Below, piece by piece: positions 5,861 through 55,357 of a DNA stretch of 64,000 bases. The stretch is from Maylandia zebra (taxonomy: Eukaryota; Chordata; Actinopteri; Cichliformes; Cichlidae): NCBI RefSeq assembly GCF_041146795.1, contig NC_135177.1, forward strand, positions 38,403,560-38,467,559, given 5' to 3'. The first letter of the stretch is position 1; each line of letters begins with the position of its first letter. The position numbers and the translations under genes were made by a program. The notes under the pieces are model-generated. The model did no database searches, was not told the DNA's origin, and saw only the letters and a program-made list of their open reading frames with translations.

Positions 5861-6770
5861 GAAAGAAAAGCGTCTGGACTTCTTTGAGTTGCTTGAAGAC
5901 GTTTCACCTCTCATCCCAGAAGCTTCTTCAGTTCTAAGGTCAAATGGTGGAGAGTCCCAGATATAAACCTAGTGGGAGTTTCCCCCCACAGAGGGACAAA
6001 AGGACCCCCTGATGATCCTCTAATCATCTGAGCCAAGGTGTAAAACTGGGTGTGGGTCCCAATCAGCCAGGGTTTCGGGTGTGTTCATTGTGAAACCTGG
6101 CCCCACTCTATCATGTGATTTCCTGAGGTCAGATGGTCCAGGATGTGAGTGGGCGTTAAGGTGTCTGGGGAGGATCTCAAAACTGGATTATAGATGGCAG
6201 AACATTGGCATCCTCGAAAGAGTGTCCTTTATCCTTAAGATGCAGATGGACTGCTGAGTCTTGTCCTGTGGAGGTGACTCTTCTGTGTTGTGCCATGCGC
6301 TTGTGAAGTGGCTGTTTGGTCTTTCCAATGTAGAGGTCTGAGCATTCCTCGCTGCACTGTACAGCATACACCACATTGTTAACTCATTCACTGCCATTGA
6401 CGTCTATAGCCGTCAATTGCAGTGAATGAGTCAATGGGTTTAACTCATTCACTGCCAATGGCTGGCAGTGAATGAGTTAAGTCTGTGTTTTGGAGTTTTG
6501 TCTTTCAGGTGAACCAGTTTCTCTCTGAGCGTGTTGCTGGGTCTGAAATGCACCGGGATGTCATGCTTGGAGAAAACTCTCCTGAGTTTCTCTGATACAC
6601 CGGCTACATAGGGGATGACAATGTTGTTGCGTCTGTCCTTCTTATCCTCCCTCGCTGGTGTCTGGTCTTCTTTTCTGTGCCTCTTTGCTGACTTTAAGAA
6701 CGCCCATTTAGGATGGCCGCACGTTTTGAGTGCTTCCTTTACATGTGTGTGTTCCGGGGTAGCGGTCATG
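5861..6770 (-). mobile_element. Penelope-like retroelement, minus strand, C-terminal RT linker and GIY-YIG endonuclease
   Basis: Reading leftward, frames give the RT/EN linker (HTHVKEALKTCGHPKWAFLKS, then NNIVIPYVAGVSEKLRRVF) and a GIY-YIG nuclease with its hallmark tandem motif VVYAVQC...DLYIGKTKQ, as in PLE retroelements of fish. The copy is broken by a 94-bp MITE at 6383-6476 and has lost part of the sequence after the GHSFEDANV motif. Only the C-terminal part of the ORF is present; the RT core is missing. The left side (5870-6170) is the 3' segment also seen at 9600-9960 in the opposite orientation. Confidence 0.85.
6383..6476 (+). mobile_element. 94-bp double-hairpin MITE with TTAA target duplication (copy 1)
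   Basis: The insertion is flanked by TTAA on both sides (6379-6382 and 6477-6480). The intact PLE sequence at 8992-9005 carries a single TTAA at the same point, so the site is a true TTAA duplication as in piggyBac-type elements. The element consists of two consecutive hairpins, each starting CTCATTCACTGC and ending GCAGTGAATGAG. A second copy, inverted, lies at 34745-34838. Confidence 0.9.
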
Positions 6771-10479: not shown

Positions 10480-11096
10480 CGTTTGTTTTCTCAACAAGTG
10501 TACACAATCAGGAAACTGAAATGTGAGTTTAACAAGTACTAGATGCAACACCTAAACCTAAGGGGTTTATGCAGCCTGAGCTAAGTAAGCAATCTATCCT
10601 TATTCTTATTCTTCTTTTTTATACTAAGTTAATATACTGTGTTGTGTTGTTTGTTACGTTGTGATGTGTCATATCGTGTCGTGTTGTGTTATATGTAGTG
10701 CCGACGTAGGACAGTTTTTCCAATTTCATTGTACTACTGTACTATGTATGACTGTGCAATGACAATAAAGAGTTATCTTATCTTATCTTATCTTATCTTT
10801 GTGTCGCACTGCTTACTTGCCGCGGATGGTCAGTAGTGGCGTGGAGGGGTGAGTGGTCCGGGTGAGTGGTCTGAAATCCAAAATCCCTGGCGTTGAGGCA
10901 TGGAGGTAGGCAGGTGCATAGGGCGAGAAACCCATGAGACTGTCAGGACGTCCAGCGTCTGGATGGTTCAAGGTTCAAGGTTCTTCATTTGTCACATGCA
11001 TAGTTATACAAGTATAACATACAGTGAAATGTAGCCTGACACGCTCCTCGACATGTGCAAAAATTGGGGGGGGGGAGGGGTGTAGAGGAAGAACAT
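10480..11096. repeat. LINE/SINE 3' tail with (TTATC)n and flanking gene-free sequence
   Basis: A 'gtgcaatgacaataaagagt' tail ends in TTATC pentamer repeats (10773-10799), a standard LINE/SINE 3' terminus. The remainder (10800-11096) has a doubled 'caaggttcaaggttctt' motif, typical of a dispersed fish repeat on the minus strand, and a G-run at about 11067-11078. No coding sequence seen. Confidence 0.5.
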
Positions 11097-11165
11097 TATA
11101 TATATATATAAAAAAAAACACCCAGCACGCCCCTGCGGGCGGTTTATCCTTCAAGCTCGGGTCCT

Positions 11166-14100
11166 CTACCAGAGGCTTGGGAGCTTGAGGGTCCTGCGCA
11201 GTATCTTAGCTGTTCCCAGGACTGCGCTCTTCTGGACAGAGATCTCCGATGTTGTTCCCGGGATCTGCTGGAGCCACTCGCCTAGCTTGGGAGTCACCGC
11301 ACCTAGTGCTCCGATTACCACGGGGACCACCGTTACCTTCACCCTCCACATCCTCTCGAGCTCTTCTCTGAGCCCTTGGTATTTCTCCAGCTTCTCGTGT
11401 TCCTTCTTCCTGATATTGCTGTCATTCGGAACCGCTACATCGATCACTACGGCCGTCTTCTTCTGTTTGTCTACCACCACTATGTCCGGTTGGTTAGCCA
11501 CCACCATTTTGTCCGTCTGTATCTGGAAGTCCCACAGGATCTTAGCTCGGTCATTCTCCACCACCCTTGGGGGCATCTCCCATTTTGACCTCGGGACTTC
11601 CAGGTTATACTCGGCACAGATGTTCCTGTACACTATACCGGCCACTTGGTTATGGCGTTCCATGTATGCCTTGCCTGCTAGCATCTTGCACCCTGCTGTT
11701 ATGTGTTGGATTGTCTCTGGGGCATCTTTACACAGCCTGCACCTGGGGTCTTGCCTGGTGTGATAGACCCCAGCCTCTATGGATCTTGTACTCAGAGCTT
11801 GTTCTTGTGCTGCCATGATTAGTGCCTCTGTGCTGTCTTTCAGTCCAGCTTTGTCCAGCCACTGGTAGGATTTCTGGATATCAGCCACCTCCTCTATCTG
11901 CCGGTGGTACATACCGTGCAGGGGCCTGTCCTTCCATGATGGTTCCTCGTTTCCCTCCTCTTTCTTGGGTTTCTGCTGCCTGAGGTATTCACTGAGCACT
12001 TGGTCAGTTGGGGCCATCTTCCCAATGTATTCTTGGATGTTCGTTGTCTCATCCTGGACTGTGGTGCTGACACTCACCAGTCCCCGGCCCCCTTCCTTCC
12101 GCTTAGCGTACAGCCTCAGGGTGCTGGACTTGGGGTGAAACCCTCCATGCATGGTAAGGAGCTTTCTTGTCTTTATGTCAGTGGCTTCTATCTCCTCCTT
12201 TGGCCAGCCTATTACCCCAGCAGGGTACCTGATCACGGGCAGGGCGTACGTGTTGATGGCCCGGATCTTGTTCTTACCATTCAGCTGACTCCTCAGGACT
12301 TGCCTGACCCTCTGCAGGTACTTGGTGGTTGCAGCCTTTCTAGCGGCCTCTTCATGGTTCCCATTTGCCTGCGGGATCCCCAGGTACTTGTAACTGTCCT
12401 CTATGTCTGCAATGTTGCCTTCTGGTAGTTCAATCCCCTCAGTTCTGACTACCTTCCCTCTCTTTGATACCATCCGACTACACTTCTCCAGTCCGAACGA
12501 CATTCCAATGTCATTGCTGTATAGCCTGGTAGTGTGGATCAGTGAATCGATGTCTCGTTCACTCTTGGCATACAGCTTGATGTCATCCATGTACAGGAGG
12601 TGGCTGACAACTGCTCCGTTTCGTAGTCGGTATCCGTAGCCAGTCTTGTTAATGATCTCACTGAGGGGGTTCAGGCCTATGCAGAACAGCAGTGGGGACA
12701 GAGCATCTCCTTGGTAGATCCCGCACTTGATGGTGACTTGTGCTATGGGCTTGGAGTTGACCTCTAGTGTTGTACGCCACATCCCCATTGAGTTCCTGAT
12801 GAAGGCTCTTAGGGTCCCATTGATCTTGTACAATTCTAGGCATTCCAGTATCCAGCTGTGGGGCATTGAGTCATAGGCCTTCTTGTAATCAATCCAGGCA
12901 GTGCACAGGTTGGTCAGTCTGGTCTTGCAGTCTCGGCTGATTGTTCTGTCTACCAGTAGCTGGTGTTTTGCGCCTCTGGTATTCTTGCCAATTCCTTTCT
13001 GTGTCCCGCTCATGTATTGACCCATGTGCCTGTTCATCTTAGCCGATATGATGCCTGACAGGAGCTTCCATGTAGTACTGAGGCAGGTTATTGGTCGGTA
13101 GTTGGAGGGGACCGGTCCCTTCTTGGGGTCCTTGGGGATCAGGACCGTCCGGCCTTCAGTTAGCCATTCCGGGTGTCTCTCGTTAACTAGCAGCTGGTTC
13201 ATTTGTGCTGCCAGACGCTCGTGGAGTGCAGTCAGCTTCTTCAGCCAGTAGGTGTGAACCATGTCGGGCCCTGGTGCTGTCCAACTCTTCATACTGGAGA
13301 CTCTTTCTTGGATATCTGCCACTGTGATGGTTACTGGACCCTGTTCAGGGAGGTCGCTGTGGTCTGCCCTCAGATCCTCTAGCCACTGAGCATTGCCGTT
13401 ATGGGTTGCATCCTTCTCCCATATGCTCTTCCAGTATTGCTCCGTCTCCAGCCTTGGTGGTGCTGTTCTCTTATTGTTCCCTTGCCACCGAGAGTACACC
13501 TTTGCTGGTTCTGTGGAGAACAGCTGGTTTATTCTCCTGCCTTTTATCTCTCTGGTGTACCTCCTCAAGCGGCTGGCCAAGGCTGTGAGTCTTTGCTTGG
13601 CAGTTTCCAAGGCCTCAGGTATGGACAGCTTGCTGTATTTCTTAGGCACCTTATTTGTCGCACCTTTCTGCAACTCCGTTAGTTGGCTAACCTCCCTCCG
13701 TGCTACTTTGATCTTGCCCTCTAGCCTCCTTCTCCATGGAGGGTACTGCCCCTTGTGGCTGTTCAACGTGTAGCCAAGCATCTCACTGATCACTGCTGCC
13801 ATATTGTAGATCAGCTTGTTAGTGTCGGTAATCGTGGTTGTAGGTATTGCCCGTAGTGCTGCATTAACATCATCTAGCAGACCTTCTGAGGGTACTTCAC
13901 GTAATCTTGGTAACCGGCTACAGGGGATTGAGGTTTCAAGCTTGGCCATGATCCTATTTTTCAGGTCAGTTCCTCTCGCACTCAACGATCCTTCTCCTAT
14001 CGCACTTGGGGCTATGTACCCAATCTCGGGTGGGGGTGATGATATCGCCCCCCTGACCTGGCATCCTGACTCCTCCTTGCCGTAGCATTTGTGTTGTACC

Positions 14101-14447
14101 TCGTCAATCTCTAGCTGTGAGAGCAGTCCCTTCTTTCGAATGTTGGAACACTGAGCTACTAGTTGTTTCGCCGTCATTGTGGATGTTGGGTATCGAAGAA
14201 TCCATAGGTCCCTCATCCTATTCATGTAGCCCCTTCCGCCGGGGTTACTTGCGTAGTAGCATTCCAACAACGCCCTGTTTTCGTCTCTTGCCCACCGATG
14301 CCTTCTTGTTCCAGTAGCCCACTTTTCGTCAGGGTGCCCTGGTTCCTCAACACCTGACGCGGACCTTGTTGATCCGGGCGACGTCCGAGCCGGCATGCCT
14401 TCATATTTATTTGTCTCGCTCATGTCTGCGGTAGGCTCGCTTAGCAT
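11166..14447 (-). CDS. LINE polyprotein: Myb-like DNA-binding, reverse transcriptase, CCHC, REL endonuclease
   Basis: This is the retrotransposon's single protein, 1093 codons without a stop. Visible parts, in order: a Myb-like N-terminal region (about residues 45-110; GTRRHRWARDENRALLECY and RYPTSTMTAKQLVAQ), a linker, then the RT with NYRPITCLS and IYQGDALSPLLFC and the catalytic YMDD near residue 620. Near residue 903 is a C-x2-C-x8-H-x4-C knuckle (CRLC...HITAGC). The restriction-like endonuclease follows, with PDIVVVD and VIDVAVP around residues 987-1009. There is no N-terminal AP endonuclease. The Met at 14447 was taken as the start; an in-frame Met nine codons later (MSETNKYEG) is an alternative. 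The arrangement fits the R4/Dong/Rex6 lineage more than R2, but the exact clade is uncertain. The host gene decr1 lies more than 2 kb away, and the element is unrelated to it. Confidence 0.9.
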   Translation of the reverse strand: MLSEPTADMSETNKYEGMPARTSPGSTRSASGVEEPGHPDEKWATGTRRHRWARDENRALLECYYASNPGGRGYMNRMRDLWILRYPTSTMTAKQLVAQCSNIRKKGLLSQLEIDEVQHKCYGKEESGCQVRGAISSPPPEIGYIAPSAIGEGSLSARGTDLKNRIMAKLETSIPCSRLPRLREVPSEGLLDDVNAALRAIPTTTITDTNKLIYNMAAVISEMLGYTLNSHKGQYPPWRRRLEGKIKVARREVSQLTELQKGATNKVPKKYSKLSIPEALETAKQRLTALASRLRRYTREIKGRRINQLFSTEPAKVYSRWQGNNKRTAPPRLETEQYWKSIWEKDATHNGNAQWLEDLRADHSDLPEQGPVTITVADIQERVSSMKSWTAPGPDMVHTYWLKKLTALHERLAAQMNQLLVNERHPEWLTEGRTVLIPKDPKKGPVPSNYRPITCLSTTWKLLSGIISAKMNRHMGQYMSGTQKGIGKNTRGAKHQLLVDRTISRDCKTRLTNLCTAWIDYKKAYDSMPHSWILECLELYKINGTLRAFIRNSMGMWRTTLEVNSKPIAQVTIKCGIYQGDALSPLLFCIGLNPLSEIINKTGYGYRLRNGAVVSHLLYMDDIKLYAKSERDIDSLIHTTRLYSNDIGMSFGLEKCSRMVSKRGKVVRTEGIELPEGNIADIEDSYKYLGIPQANGNHEEAARKAATTKYLQRVRQVLRSQLNGKNKIRAINTYALPVIRYPAGVIGWPKEEIEATDIKTRKLLTMHGGFHPKSSTLRLYAKRKEGGRGLVSVSTTVQDETTNIQEYIGKMAPTDQVLSEYLRQQKPKKEEGNEEPSWKDRPLHGMYHRQIEEVADIQKSYQWLDKAGLKDSTEALIMAAQEQALSTRSIEAGVYHTRQDPRCRLCKDAPETIQHITAGCKMLAGKAYMERHNQVAGIVYRNICAEYNLEVPRSKWEMPPRVVENDRAKILWDFQIQTDKMVVANQPDIVVVDKQKKTAVVIDVAVPNDSNIRKKEHEKLEKYQGLREELERMWRVKVTVVPVVIGALGAVTPKLGEWLQQIPGTTSEISVQKSAVLGTAKILRRTLKLPSLW

Positions 14448-14485
14448 AGGGGGTCTAGCCTTAGGACCCTTACTGGATACAGACG

Positions 14486-14558
14486 CCCCAGGCAGGAATC
14501 GAACTTGCGATCCTCTGTTCCAAAGGCGTGTAGTCTAACCACTACGCTATCCAGCTGC
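14486..14558 (-). promoter_or_regulatory. tRNA-like sequence (Pol III A and B boxes) at the 5' end of the REL-LINE
   Basis: Read on the minus strand, the 73-nt segment starts GCAGCTGGATAGCGTAGTGG and ends with the T-arm-like GTTCGATTCCTGCC. TAGCGTAGTGG (14539-14549) is a perfect A box (TRGYNNARNGG), and GTTCGATTCC (14495-14504) a near-perfect B box. The LINE ORF starts 38 bases downstream. A related tRNA-like head followed by the same CAGTAAGGGTCCT motif is present at 34222-34300. It may be an internal Pol III promoter or a tRNA-derived SINE joined to the LINE; it is not a functional tRNA gene by context. Confidence 0.65.
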
Positions 14559-14560
14559 AT

Positions 14561-34039: not shown

Positions 34040-36338
34040 TCAGCAGGAGTTGAGCTCCTCCATGGTCTGGTTCAGGGTCGCCTGGAGCTCCAGGTTTGCG
34101 TTCTTGGCAGAAGTCAAAGCATCTGCAACACAGAGAGGAGGGGCCAACCAGTCAATGACCAATCACATCAATCACAGGCTGGTCTCTGAGGTCTTACAGT
34201 TTTACTTTGTGACCTCAGCTGGCAGCTGATAGTGTAGTGGTAAGACTATATGCCTTTGGAGCGGGAGTTGCAAGTTCGCCCTGTATTCAGTAAGGGTCCT
34301 GCTAGAAAACCATGCTAAAACCTGGAATGGCGCAGCTAAGTCTGCAGGCTGTCCGCAGCTCGGACACATGTTGTACTGTGTATGTGACAAATAACACTTG
34401 TTGTCTGTGATGAATATTGATCGTGGGCCTCACCTTCCAGACCGTCGATGGTTTTCTCCAGTTTGGCCACCGAGCGCTCGGCAAACTCAGCTCTGGTCTC
34501 AGCCTGAAACACAGGAAGTCGGATGACAAAAGGGAAATACACACGGGGGAGAATGTGAAAAGCTGGTCTGTTGCAGAACCCTGATTGGTCGCTCTGGTTT
34601 GTTGTTTTGTGCAGGATAAATAGTCAAACTGAAAACGCTCGTACGTCCTGGTTTTATACTTTCTTAAACCCTTTCAAGATATTTTTTGTTTAGTTTTTTT
34701 CAAAATAAAACATCACACTTTATGGTCACATTAATCTTGTTTAACTCATTCACTGCCAGCCATTGGCAGTGAATGAGTTAGACCCATTGACTCATTCACT
34801 GCAATTGACGGCTATAGACGTCAATGGCAGTGAATGAGTTAATATTCGTGACCTCAGACAAAGTCTCAGACCTTAATTATAAAATTGAAAATACATTACA
34901 CACTTAGCCTTAAACCGACGATTGGCTGACTTTATTCAGATGCTTCCCTCCATGCAGCTGACAGCTTTTATTGTGAAAAGAAGAAACAAATCGAGTTTCT
35001 CCAACAGGTCGTGACGTCACAGGTGAACATGACACTCACCTCCTTCAGTCTGTTGCGCAGACTCTTGATCTCCTCCTCATACCTGTCCTCCTTCTGAGAG
35101 TACTGACACACAGAGACAGCAGCCAATCAGAGAGCAGGTACACACAGGTGAGCACACAGGTGTGAGGCTGAACCGTTTCTGGTTCCAGAGACTGCACCGG
35201 CTCCGTTCCCCGGCAGAATTACCTGTGCCATGAAGCCCCACCCCCTCCTCCTACCTTGTCGGCTTGGGCCTCCAGAGACTTTGCACTTGTGAACACAGTT
35301 TTCAGCTCCTCCTCCAACACCCGGGTCTTGCTGCAGGTCAAAGGTCACATCAGAGGACACAGTGTGTCAGACAGGCATGTGGGCAGGTAGGCTCAGGTGG
35401 TGTCAGGTATCAACTACGGTACCTTCCGACTAAAGCAGGATGCACTCAGCAGAACCTGGAAATGTTATGAGCCTGACCCAACTGTTCATACGGTCCCCAT
35501 CTTTAATGTTCCTGCCTCAAGACTTAGACGGAGCAGCACACCTGCACAGGTGCTGCTCTGAGAGATTGCCAGGTACGGAACTGATGATGTATTCTGTCGC
35601 CAGGCAGACAGGTGCAAGGTGGAACACCATAAATGTGATCTGTAGGCTCCGCCCCTTTGTTTTCAAGTCATGAGGATGCCAACAAAGCCATTGATTTACA
35701 TTTCTACCTCACCTGCTGCTTGACATCCTGTTATCAAGATGGCTGCCGAGTGACGAGAACTGCTTCTAGAAGCATTTTAATCAACCCGACACCATCTGAG
35801 CACCCTATGAGTTTGTGTGTGTGTCATCAGGTGTGTGCGCGCGCACTGTCAGGTGTCATTGAGCCTGCAGGTAGATTCATGCAGAGCAACAAGAGGAGGA
35901 GGGTGAGGAGGAGGAGCTGAAGCAGCAGATAAAGGTCAGAGATCATGGAGGCAGTGGGAGGTCAGGAGGAGGAGCTTCACTCGGTCAGCAGGTCCAGGTC
36001 ACGTGACCCTCAGTACCTTATCCTCGGACGCCTGCAGACTCTTCAGCGAATGATCGAAGCTCCTCAGCTGCTCCTCCAACCTCCGAACCTTACTGTGAGA
36101 CAGGTGGAGGCAGGTAGCAGGGCATGCAGACAGTTGCCGTAGAAACAGACAGGGAGAAAGAGGCGGAGCTGTTACAGAAGCAGTGTGGCATCACATCAAT
36201 GTGATGTCAAAGTTACCAGGTGTGTCAAAGCAGCTTCATGCTGTTACAGAGGCAGGTATGTCCACTTCATTAGGAACACCTACCCGCTCGAAACTCACCT
36301 GTGTGGTCCCCAAGGTGTTCCTAATAAAGTGGCTCTGA

Positions 36339-47805: not shown

Positions 47806-49155
47806 AGACCAGTCTTACTTGTTATCATCTATCGTCCACCTGGGCCTTACACAGAGTTTCTGTCTGATTTCTCAGACTTTTTATCTGATTTAGTTCTGAG
47901 CTCAGATAAAATAATTATTGTGGGGGATTTTAACATCCATGTAGATGCTAAAAATGACAGCCTCAACATGGCATTTAATCTGTTATTAGACTCAATTAGC
48001 TTCTCTCAAATGTAAAAGAACCCACCAAGCTTGATGATGACACCATCAACATGCGCTATCGCAGTAGAGCGGTATAGTCAAAATCTCTACTGTTGGCCAA
48101 ATTTATATCGTTTCTACCGCCCACCCCTAGTTACAAATTATCTTCTTATTGACTCATCTCACAGAGGTCCTGCTAGACCTCAGTGCAGCGTTCGATACTG
48201 TCGACCATAATATCCTATTAGAGCGATTAGAACATGCTGTAGGTATTACAGGTACTGCACTGCAGTGGTTTGTATCATATCTATCTAATAGACTCCAGTT
48301 TGTGCATGTAAATGGAGAGTCCTCTTCACACACTGAGGTTAATTATGGAGTTCCACAGGGTTCAGTGCTAGGACCAATTCTGTTTACATTATACATGCTT
48401 CCCTTAGGCAGCATCATTAGAAGACATAGTATACATTTACACTGCTATGCAGATGACACCCAGCTCTATCTGTCCATGAAGCCAGATAACACACACCAAT
48501 GAGTTAAACTGCGGGAATGTCTTAAAGACATAAAGACCTGGATGGCCGCTAACTTTCTGCTTCTTAATTCAGATCAAACTGAGGTTATTGTACTCGACCC
48601 TGAAAAGCTTAGAAATATGGTATCTAAGCAGATTCTTACTCTGGATGGCATTACCTTGGCCTCCAGTAACACTGTGAGGAACCTTGGAGTCATTTTTGAC
48701 CAGGACATGTCCTTCAACGCACATATTAAACAAATATGTAAGACTGCTTTCTTCCATTTGTGCAACATCTCTAAAGTTAGAAATATCCTGTCTCAGAGTG
48801 ACGCTGAAAAACTAGTTCATGCATTTATTACTTCCAGGCTGGACGACTGTAATTCATTATTATCAGGAAGTCCTAAAAACTCCCTGAAAAGCCTTCAGCT
48901 AATCCAAAATGCTGCAGCAAGAGTCCTGACAGGGACTAGAAAGAGAGAGCATACTTGAGCCTGATTCTGCCAGAGGTTTCTTCCTGTTAAAAGGGAGTTT
49001 TTCCTTCCCACCATCACCAAAGCCCTTGCTCATATAATTGTTTGGGCTTTCTCTGTTTTCCTCGCATTATTGAAGGGCCTTTACCATATATGGCACCTTG
49101 GGGCAACTGTTCTTGTGATTTGGCGCTATATAAATAAAACTGAGTTGCATTAAAC
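47806..49155 (+). mobile_element. L2 LINE copy (endonuclease end, RT and 3' tail) in the tpm3 intron
   Basis: The left part translates to VIIYRPPGPYTEFLSDFSDF and IIIVGDFNIHVDAKND (endonuclease). After an internal deletion and a short insertion, the RT continues with [33 protein letters not shown] and [10 protein letters not shown]. It then reads into SNTVRNLGVIFDQDMSFNAH and LQLIQNAAARVLTGTRK. It ends with 'ggcgctatataaataaaact'. An in-frame TGA at 48500-48502 interrupts the RT. Near-identical to the minus copy at 53080-55357. Confidence 0.9.
48040..48131 (-). mobile_element. hAT terminal fragment inside the L2 copy
   Basis: The right end (ttggccaaatttatatcg then ctaccgcccacccctag) is the inverted form of the terminus at 20238-20330. 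It lies exactly at the break in the L2 sequence. Confidence 0.65.
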
Positions 49156-49726: not shown

Positions 49727-49969
49727 GGGGCAGGGATAGCTCAGTAGGTAAAGTGGTCGCCCCATGATCGGAAGGTCGGCGGTTCGAATCCACTTAACGG
49801 CTACCCTGAGGTACCCCTGAGCAAGGTACCGTCCCTACACACTGCTCCCCGGGCGCCTGCTTAGTGGGCTGCCCACTGCTTCACTGAGTGAATGGGTCAA
49901 ATGCAGAGAAAAACAAGTAATTTCCCCATGGGGATCAATAAAGTATCCATTATTATTATTATTATTACT
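49727..49969 (+). mobile_element. tRNA-derived SINE with (TTA)n tail
   Basis: The head has a perfect A box (TAGCTCAGTAGG) and B box (GGTTCGAATCC). The body has 'ctgaggtacccctgagcaag' and 'gctccccgggcgcctgc', then 'ggggatcaataaagtatcca' and an ATT repeat tail. A reverse copy is at 58044-58236. It lies in the tpm3 intron between the 5' non-coding exon and exon 1b. Confidence 0.85.
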
Positions 49970-53079: not shown

Positions 53080-55357
53080 AAACAACTCCCTTTTAACAGG
53101 AAGAAACCTCCAGCAAAACCAGGCTCAGGGAGGGGCGGGGCCATCTGCTGTGATTGGTTGGGGTGAGAAAAGGAAGACAGGATAAAGACATGCTGTGGAA
53201 GAGAGACAGAGGTTAATAACAGATATGATTCAATGTAGAGAGGTCTGTTAACACATAGTGAGTGAGAAAGGTGACTGGAAAGGAAAAACTCAGTGCATCA
53301 TGGGAATCCCCCAGCAGCCTACGTCTATTGCAGCATAACTAAGGGAGGATTCAGGGTCACCTGGTCCAGCCCTAACTATATGCTTTAGCAAAAAGGAAAG
53401 TTTGAAGCCTAATCTTAAAGTAGAGATAGTGTCTGTCTCCTGAATCCAAACTGGAAGCTGGTTCCACAGAAAAGGGGCCTGAAAACTGAAGGCTCTGCCT
53501 CCCATTCTACTTTTAAATACTCTAGGAACAACAAGTAGGCCTGCAGAGCGAGAGCGAAGTGCTCTAATAGGGTGATATGGTACTACAAGGCCATTAAGAT
53601 CAGATGGGGCCTGATTATTTAAGACCTTGTATGTGAGGAGCAGGATTTTGAATTCTGGATTTAACAGGAAGCCAAAACAGGAGAAATCTGCTCTCTCTTT
53701 CTAGTCCCTGTCAGGACTCTTGCTGCAGCATTTTGGATTAGCTGAAGGCTTTTCAGGGAGTTTTTAGGACTTCCTGATAATAATGAATTACAGTCGTCCA
53801 GCCTGGAAGTAATAAATGCATGAACTAGTTTTTCAGCGTCACTCTGAGACAGGATATTTCTAACTTTAGAGATGTTGCACAAATGGAAGAAAGCAGTCTT
53901 ACATATTTGTTTAATATGTGCATTGAAGGACATGTCCTGGTCAAAAATGACTCCAAGGTTCCTCACAGCGTTACTGGAGGCCAAGGTAATGCCATCCAGA
54001 GTAAGAATCTGCTTAGATACCATATTTCTAGGCTTTTCAGGGCCGAGTACAATAACCTCAGTTTGATCTGAATTAAGAAGCAGAAAGTTAGCGGCCATCC
54101 AGGTCTTTATGTCTTTAAGACATTCCTGCAGTTTAACTCATTGGTGTGTGTTATCTGGCTTCATGGACAGATAGAGCTGGGTGTCATCTGCATAGCAGTG
54201 TAAATGTATGCTATGTCTTCTAATGATGCTGCCTAAGGGAAGCATGTATAATGTAAACAGAATTGGTCCTAGCACTGAACCCTGTGGAACTCCATAATTA
54301 ACCTCAGTGTGTGAAGAGGACTCTCCATTTACATGCACAAACTGGAGTCTATTAGATAGATATGATACAAACCACTGCAGCACAGTACCTGTAATACCTA
54401 CAGCATGTTCTAATTGCTTCAAATAAGCCATTCCTCTGCAGATGATCAGTTAGCTGTTTGACAACTACTCTTTCAAGGATGTTTGATATGAAAGGAAGGT
54501 TGGAGATCGTGGCTCAAGAGTTGGCAGTTCGTCTTGTAATCGGAAGGTTGCCAGTTCGAGCCCCGGCTTGGACAGTCTCGGTCGTTGTGTCCTTGGGCAA
54601 GACACTTCACCTACCGCCTACTGGTGGTGGTCAGAGGGCCCGGTGGCGCCAGTGTCCGGCAGCCTCGCCTCTGTCAGTGCGCCCCAGGGTGGCTGTGGCT
54701 ACAATGTAGCTGCCATCACCAGTGTGTGAATGTGTGTGTGAATGGGTGGATGACTGGATATGTAAAGCGCTTTGGGGTCCTTAGGGACTAGAAAAGCGCT
54801 ATATAAATACAGGCCATTTACCATTGGCCTATAATTAGCTGAGACTGCTGGGTCTAGAGATGCTTTTTGAGTAAAGGTTTAACTACAGCCAGCTTGAAGG
54901 CCTGTGGTACATAGCTGATTATTAGAGACAGGTTGATCATATTTAAGATTGAAGCATTAATTAATGGCAGGACTTCTTTGAGCAGTTTTGTAGGAATGGG
55001 GTCTAAAAGACACGTTGATGGTTTGGAGGAAGTAATTATTGAAGTTAACTCAGAAAGATCAATTGGAGGAAAAGAGTCTAACTTAACATCAATGGTACTA
55101 AGAGTAGCTGTAGATAATATTACATCTGTGGGATGATTATTGGTAATTTTTTCTCTAATGATAAAAATTTTATTTGTGAAGAAGTTCATGAAGTCATTAC
55201 TAGTTAACGTTAAAGGGATGGTTGGCTCAACAGAGCTCTGACTGTTTGTCAGCCTGGCTACAGAGCTGAAGAGAAACCTGGGGTTGTTCTTATTTTCTTC
55301 AATCAGTGATGAATAGTAAGATGTTCTGGCTTTGCGGAGAGCTTTCTTAGGCAAGCT
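53080..55357 (-). mobile_element. L2 LINE copy, minus strand, interrupted by a SINE
   Basis: Read leftward: KKALRKARTSYYSSLIEENK and NPRFLFSSVARLT (54854-55357, linker before the RT), LLDPIPTKLLKEVLP and KLAVVKPLLKKHL. Then comes the SINE (54504-54825), then [23 protein letters not shown] and [10 protein letters not shown] (54138-54431) and the C-terminal region (53661-54098; LTLDGITLASSNAVRNLGVI). The conserved 3' UTR continues to about 53085, but the usual tail is missing, so it is 3' truncated. An in-frame TGA at 54138-54140 is at the same codon as in the plus copy. Confidence 0.9.
54504..54825 (+). mobile_element. tRNA-derived SINE inserted in the L2
   Basis: The head has 'cgtggctcaagagttggc' (A-box region) and 'gccagttcgagccccggc' (B box). 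The body has 'tccttgggcaagacacttca', and the tail 'aaagcgctttggggtcctta' and 'gcgctatataaatacaggcc'. The last part resembles an L2/CR1 LINE 3' end, as expected if the SINE is mobilised by such a LINE. The L2 frame (ANYRPI and NLPFISNI) continues on both sides. Confidence 0.9.

Follow-up and report, generated by a model that had tools for sequence, protein, structure and literature searches.

A tRNA-like head with Pol III boxes and a coding sequence poor in T runs: a candidate Pol III-transcribed R4/Rex6-like LINE family in Maylandia zebra

Results

A complete LINE with a tRNA-like head

The 64,000-nt stretch of Maylandia zebra DNA that we analyzed, referred to as the window herein, contains a complete LINE of ∼3.4 kb at 14557-11110 on the minus strand. 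Judging from its sequence and that of its genomic copies, we consider it probable that this element represents an R4/Rex6-like LINE family whose full-length form would be transcribed over its whole length by Pol III. From 5′ to 3′, the element consists of a tRNA-like head, a leader, an ORF of 1093 codons, a short 3′ UTR, and a T tract, and its insertion site is a (TG)n(TA)n microsatellite. An earlier note on this DNA had described an intact 1093-codon LINE ORF, which we located at 11166-14447 (minus strand), and a tRNA-like segment that, as drawn there, does end 38 bases before the ATG. The features are as follows.

11110..14557, minus strand: whole element, R4/Rex6-like LINE in (TA)n; 5′ end drawn from 30 loci including the window, 3′ end from the window and 19 fetched copies
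14470..14557, minus strand: tRNA-like head with closing stem; from boxes, folding, and genome loci
14539..14549, minus strand: A box, TAGCGTAGTGG
14495..14505, minus strand: B box, AGTTCGATTCC; 44 nt from start of A box to start of B box
14448..14478, minus strand: head end to start codon; common to the SINE-like copy at 34221
11166..14447, minus strand: single ORF, 1093 codons, few T runs
12375..13127, minus strand: RVT_1 reverse transcriptase (RT) domain, residues 441-691; Pfam E 1.1e-25; PDB R2 proteins, best E 7.9e-33
11301..11741, minus strand: zinc knuckle (C903, C906, H915, C920) and presumed restriction-like endonuclease region; residues common to L001
11119..11165, minus strand: 3′ UTR, 47 nt, with GGGTG at its end
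11110..11118, minus strand: T9 tract, 3′ end, candidate Pol III terminator; last T perhaps part of the TA repeat
34221..34403, plus strand: SINE-like copy with head and leader in common and an L2-like tail

The (TA)n repeat had been placed right beyond the head. The flank is indeed TA-rich, but in the window six bases (TCAATG) intervene between (TA)n and CAGCTGG, the T among them perhaps being repeat-derived. Across genome loci the 5′ end is sharp, falling at CAGCTGG or at most 3 bases off, frequently with a preceding G. The motif AATAAA occurs in the element only at 14411 and 13533 (minus strand), inside the ORF, and is absent near the 3′ end. Just downstream of the element lies an L2-like LINE 3′ end (10955-11065, minus strand) that resembles the tail of the SINE-like copy.

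Protein and class assignment

The ORF encodes a LINE-type RT whose nearest solved structures are R2 proteins, and no APE family appeared among its Pfam matches up to E 1. From its motif, we presume the C-terminal region to be a restriction-like endonuclease; CCHC and PD..D residues are conserved between the ORF and L001, and the match of this part in the PDB search was not significant. L001, an unclassified LINE whose ORF is ∼35% identical to the focal protein, was the only relative found among GTDB contigs. The assembly to which it belongs bears the label Streptomyces narbonensis JCM 4147, and its contig there is probably animal contamination; positions 1-3992 of L001 comprise an R4-type LINE ORF and, after it, AAT-rich sequence. 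The viral, phage, and E. coli sequence collections yielded zero relatives, and the plasmid collection yielded a single distant RT (23% identical).

The layout agrees with the R4/Rex6 group: as in Rex6/R4 elements (Dong, R4), a single ORF carries the RT and then a C-terminal zinc knuckle and presumed restriction-like endonuclease. Going by this layout, we file the element with R4/Rex6 tentatively, the endonuclease being a presumed one. Dong and R4 have microsatellites or rDNA as targets, and a TA-rich 5′ flank, as for an R4/Rex6-type target, was present at 30 of 30 head-bearing loci drawn from the best 40 of 1599 candidates. Rex6 is an R4-family element in teleosts, and neither a tRNA head nor a Pol III promoter is mentioned for it in the available portions of the papers that describe it (PMC6274825, PMC7599744); in this the focal element differs.

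Boxes and fold of the head

Both Pol III boxes claimed for the head, the A box at 14549-14539 and the B box at 14505-14495, are intact and spaced by 44 nt. A search of the window for exact A/B pairs 38 to 55 nt apart returned three pairs, all at 44 nt, the other two being SINEs at 49737 (plus strand) and 58227 (minus strand). In 60 dinucleotide-shuffled windows there were no pairs with an exact B box, one pair at ≤1 B-box mismatch, and five at ≤2. The two tRNA-derived SINE copies (49728-49934, plus strand, and 58236-58037, minus strand; boxes at 44 nt) are 88% identical to each other, and their core presumably is of the V-SINE type.

As a tRNA the head is degenerate. ARAGORN at default settings did not call it, and loosened searches reported an intron-bearing tRNA-Pro solely at the most permissive setting tried; an Rfam search gave no tRNA family among matches at E≤10. 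The fold of the 75-nt segment outlined in the earlier note reached a z no better than −1.68. Extending the head to 14465-14557 gained an 8-bp closing stem (GCUGGAUA/UAUCCAGU) and a z of −2.77, with 3 of 200 shuffles equally good, and the longer stretch 14448-14560 gave −1.92.

The head is shared by copies across the genome

We searched the host genome (962 Mb) with two queries, one made of the head and its flank and one internal to the ORF. The head-and-flank query, for which the best 40 of 1599 candidates were scored, gave 30 loci including that of the window (L002). All 30 carry the head, both boxes at 44 nt, and the TA-rich flank; the head begins at base 1 in 26 loci and at bases 2 to 4 in the other four, with at most one mismatch. 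Because this query held the head, it favors headed copies. The ORF-internal query (best 40 of 1054 candidates scored) gave 12 loci, again including the window (L052). Five of these reach the ATG and all five continue into the head. Three have both boxes, namely the window, L056, and L063 (head from base 1, 1, and 4), and the remaining two, L055 and L060, show only the B box because they are 5′ truncated inside the head, at bases 34 and 42. The other seven end within the ORF, at element positions 117 (L061), 170 (L053, L057, and L058), 196 (L062), 249 (L059), and 250 (L054). Headless copies in this set are thus shorter, and none has an alternative 5′ end before the ATG, so that in this sample of 12 loci it is not the case that most full-length copies lack the head. 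That the tRNA-like part lies inside the element, as first proposed, is borne out by 30 of 30 loci from one query and by all five ATG-reaching loci from the other.

These copies bear directly on the idea, also raised earlier, that the head of the window copy stems from a unique event, either a junction between the LINE and a pre-existing SINE or one template switch. Chimeras of tRNA and LINE-1 are known, with 21 loci reported, mostly antisense half-tRNAs (PMC13174262, available part). Here the head is in sense, at least 29 other loci have the same head, and it recurs in the four other ATG-reaching loci of the internal query, in two of them only in part. Since other loci share the head, we reject a one-off origin for the window copy, which is exceedingly improbable. 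Target mimicry, a further suggestion for the head, found no support, as the flank of all 30 head loci is TA-rich and is not a tRNA gene.

Several loci depart from the common arrangement. L063 has no TA repeat at its flank, and in L056 the TA repeat ends 21 nt before the head and six closing-stem bases are missing. L053, L057, and L058 (contig C3, 56-60 Mb) share an identical truncation junction into what reads like the coding sequence of another retroelement and are probably one duplicated locus; no other upstream sequence recurs among the internal-query loci. In L061 a second, inverted piece covers element 1-144 (92%), head included. A TTTT lies within 1.6 kb of the head in 3 of the 30 head loci (L003, L007, and L016), in each case in rearranged or inserted sequence of an inverted or interrupted copy. 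The 3′ parts of L003 and L007 are inverted, and L016 and L012/L038 (one locus, fetched twice) have internal gaps and foreign inserts; all five look as if rearranged by reverse transcription or repair.

Full-length copies and their 3′ ends

Twenty stretches around head loci, chosen from the best matches, were fetched, and 19 of them include both ends; L032 stops at about 1233, and 775-2130 is missing from L038. Counting the window with 19 fetched copies, no TTTT occurs between head and 3′ end in any of the 20, and TTTT is likewise absent from the ∼2.1 kb examined of the other four ATG-reaching loci of the internal query. All 20 copies end in GGGTG followed by T2 to T13. The T tract is T4 or longer in 15, T8 or longer in 12, and T2-T3 in five, including L043 and L046, whose ORFs are nonetheless intact. 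TA-rich DNA lies downstream of the tract in 19 of 20 copies, the exception being L041; the end of a neighboring copy in L032 reads T1 and then (GT)n.

The LINE family is young and high-copy. Alignment of 19 copies above 3 kb, 18 of them fetched and one the window's own, showed identities of 98.5% or more, with a mean of 99.1%. The 1093-residue ORF is kept in nine of 20 copies (window, L034, L037, L040, L043, L044, L046, L049, and L050). Counted against the column majority, substitutions found in more than one copy comprise 26 synonymous, 20 missense, and no stop changes, and singletons comprise 59 synonymous, 75 missense, and two stop changes, a distribution that may point to selection acting on the protein of source copies. 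Copies this similar do not serve as independent tests of T purging, and new T-run-making changes among them (1 observed versus 2.7 expected) are uninformative.

Scarcity of T runs in the coding sequence

The ORF has a T content of 16.1% and contains a single TTT run and no TTTT. Synonymous codon permutation predicts 5.4 TTT runs (P 0.006) and base content predicts 11.5. If the protein were recoded with the codon preferences of L001 or of two LINE ORFs from the window, ∼15 TTT and 2.1 to 2.5 TTTT would be expected, and the probability of zero TTTT would be 0.06 and 0.10. These controls are one distant relative and two partial ORFs, for one genome. The longest TTTT-free stretch of the window on either strand (3769 nt) spans the sense strand of the element and ends at its T9, and in 500-base steps the scarcity of T runs coincides with the extent of the element.

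At fourfold sites, T makes up 13.2% in the ORF versus 29.0% in L001 and 28.8% and 29.0% in the two window LINE ORFs. Within the ORF, T fills 53 of 297 fourfold sites with no T neighbor, 11 of 169 with one, and 0 of 20 with two (P 1e-4). No such neighbor effect was seen in L001, and the two window ORFs avoid T next to T more weakly (57/160 versus 30/141, P 0.007). Phe accounts for six of 1093 residues versus 29 of 1131 in L001 (P 1e-4); in the RT region it amounts to 1.0% versus 2.7% in L001 and 3.3 to 3.4% in two R2 proteins.

T-run depletion could instead follow from base composition, from codon preference, or from general avoidance of A/T homopolymers, with the head a weak or decayed promoter. 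Under the ORF's own codon use, the absence of TTTT taken alone is not significant (0.66 expected, P 0.46). A runs, too, are fewer than expected (AAA 40 versus 55.1, AAAA 7 versus 14.3), and some of the depletion may therefore reflect a broader avoidance of A/T runs; CCCC shows an excess (17 versus 10.3 expected). However, T runs are hit hardest, with observed-to-expected ratios of 0.18 for TTT, 0.73 for AAA, and 0.49 for AAAA, and Phe and fourfold T are low in a family whose two boxes match in all 30 head loci. We regard this compositional explanation as quite improbable.

Proposed transcription by Pol III

In our preferred reading, the full-length element would bring along, at its 5′ end, a Pol III promoter of type 2 (tRNA-type). 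Pol III would start at or next to the first element base, pass through the 3.3-kb ORF owing to the lack of TTTT on its sense strand, and stop in the 3′ T tract. The uncapped RNA with its oligo-U end would be translated cap-independently, and the same RNA would be copied into (TA)n by target-primed reverse transcription. With promoter and terminator both inside the transcript, a full-length copy would form a complete transcription unit wherever it lands. We infer Pol III occupancy, the full-length transcript, the translation route, and the integration mechanism from these features. As in type-2 Pol III genes, the A box, the B box, and their spacing are in place, internal TTTT is found in 0 of 20 copies, and 15 of 20 end in T4 or longer. 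The suggestion that the tRNA head is a promoter gains indirect support from the intact boxes, the head, whole or 5′ truncated, on all five ATG-reaching loci of the internal query, and the purging of T runs from the ORF.

Counting against this reading are the depletion of A runs alongside T runs, the T2-T3 ends of five of 20 copies, the degenerate tRNA fold, and the youth and likeness of the copies; Pol III transcripts above 3 kb would also be unusual. In the available text of PMC8501072, whole Pol III terminates at ∼50% at 5T, and at 9T termination by the Pol III core reaches at least 80%, comparable to the holoenzyme. TRIM length is tied to Pol III processivity in the part of PMC10886601 at hand. 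The same source presents the TRIMp3 elements (Cassandra, Helenus, and Ajax), which like the focal element are retroelements having taken over a small-RNA promoter and unlike it are short, non-autonomous LTR elements. R2, which belongs to the same broad group, with a related RT and an RNA made without its own Pol II promoter, has a 5′ ribozyme, Pol I co-transcription, and IRES-type translation (PMC7650587, available part), so that going without a cap and poly(A) may be of little consequence to such elements; R2 differs from the focal element in its 28S-gene location, Pol I co-transcript, and ribozyme. Among the literature matches listed, titles and abstract openings disclosed no Pol III-transcribed LINE.

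The R2 precedent can also be read another way. The head may be inherited in the family and yet yield only short Pol III RNAs, or serve as an RNA structure in 5′ end definition, RNase P/Z cutting, or translation, with full-length RNA coming from Pol II or from flanking transcription. The strong closing stem of the extended head suits such a role. This explanation leaves the scarcity of T runs in the ORF and the oligo-T 3′ ends unaccounted for, and we hold it to be unlikely.

A SINE-like copy and the origin of the head

At 34221-34403 (plus strand), the window holds a SINE-like copy in which the head is followed by sequence shared with the LINE up to the start codon. Its post-head part aligns to the LINE with a score of 52 versus 28 for the best of 2000 shuffles, and the stretch before the ATG alone scores 33 versus 24 for the best of 3000. 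Similarity to the first ORF bases is weaker (24; 6 of 3000 shuffles as good), the L2-like tail scores 31 (8 of 3000 as good), and the B box is damaged. Outside the LINE matches, no further SINE-like copy was found in 62 fetched stretches (213 kb). This copy may be a SINE born from the 5′ end of the LINE or a relic of the SINE that donated the head. Template switching or SINE capture, untenable as a one-off event, may thus be the historical origin of the head since the SINE-like copy shares both head and leader. The LINE itself resembles tRNA-derived SINEs, including the two in the window, in having a tRNA-type promoter at the 5′ end, its A and B boxes 44 nt apart, but it is neither short nor non-coding, at 3.4 kb with a 1093-codon ORF for its own RT.

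Transcription by Pol III as proposed above invites a wider reading, to which we lean slightly: the life cycle of this LINE may have moved wholly to Pol III, reshaping its coding sequence and protein toward few T runs and few Phe, and its 5′ end may also have spawned a SINE by way of an L2-type tail. The available part of PMC10886601 assigns LINEs to Pol II and SINEs to Pol III. A coding 3.4-kb Pol III element would, if real, break that division, show the reach of Pol III in an animal, raise the question of how uncapped, non-polyadenylated RNA is translated, and offer a direct route for SINEs to arise from the 5′ end of a LINE itself. The scarcity of T runs opens the claim to testing in sister families by sequence alone.

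Two further repeats were observed in the window. An inverted pair at 48222-48951 and 53689-54418 is 98.8% identical over 730 bp, and a short palindromic repeat occurs at 34741-34842 and 6379-6480 with 99% identity over 102 bp.
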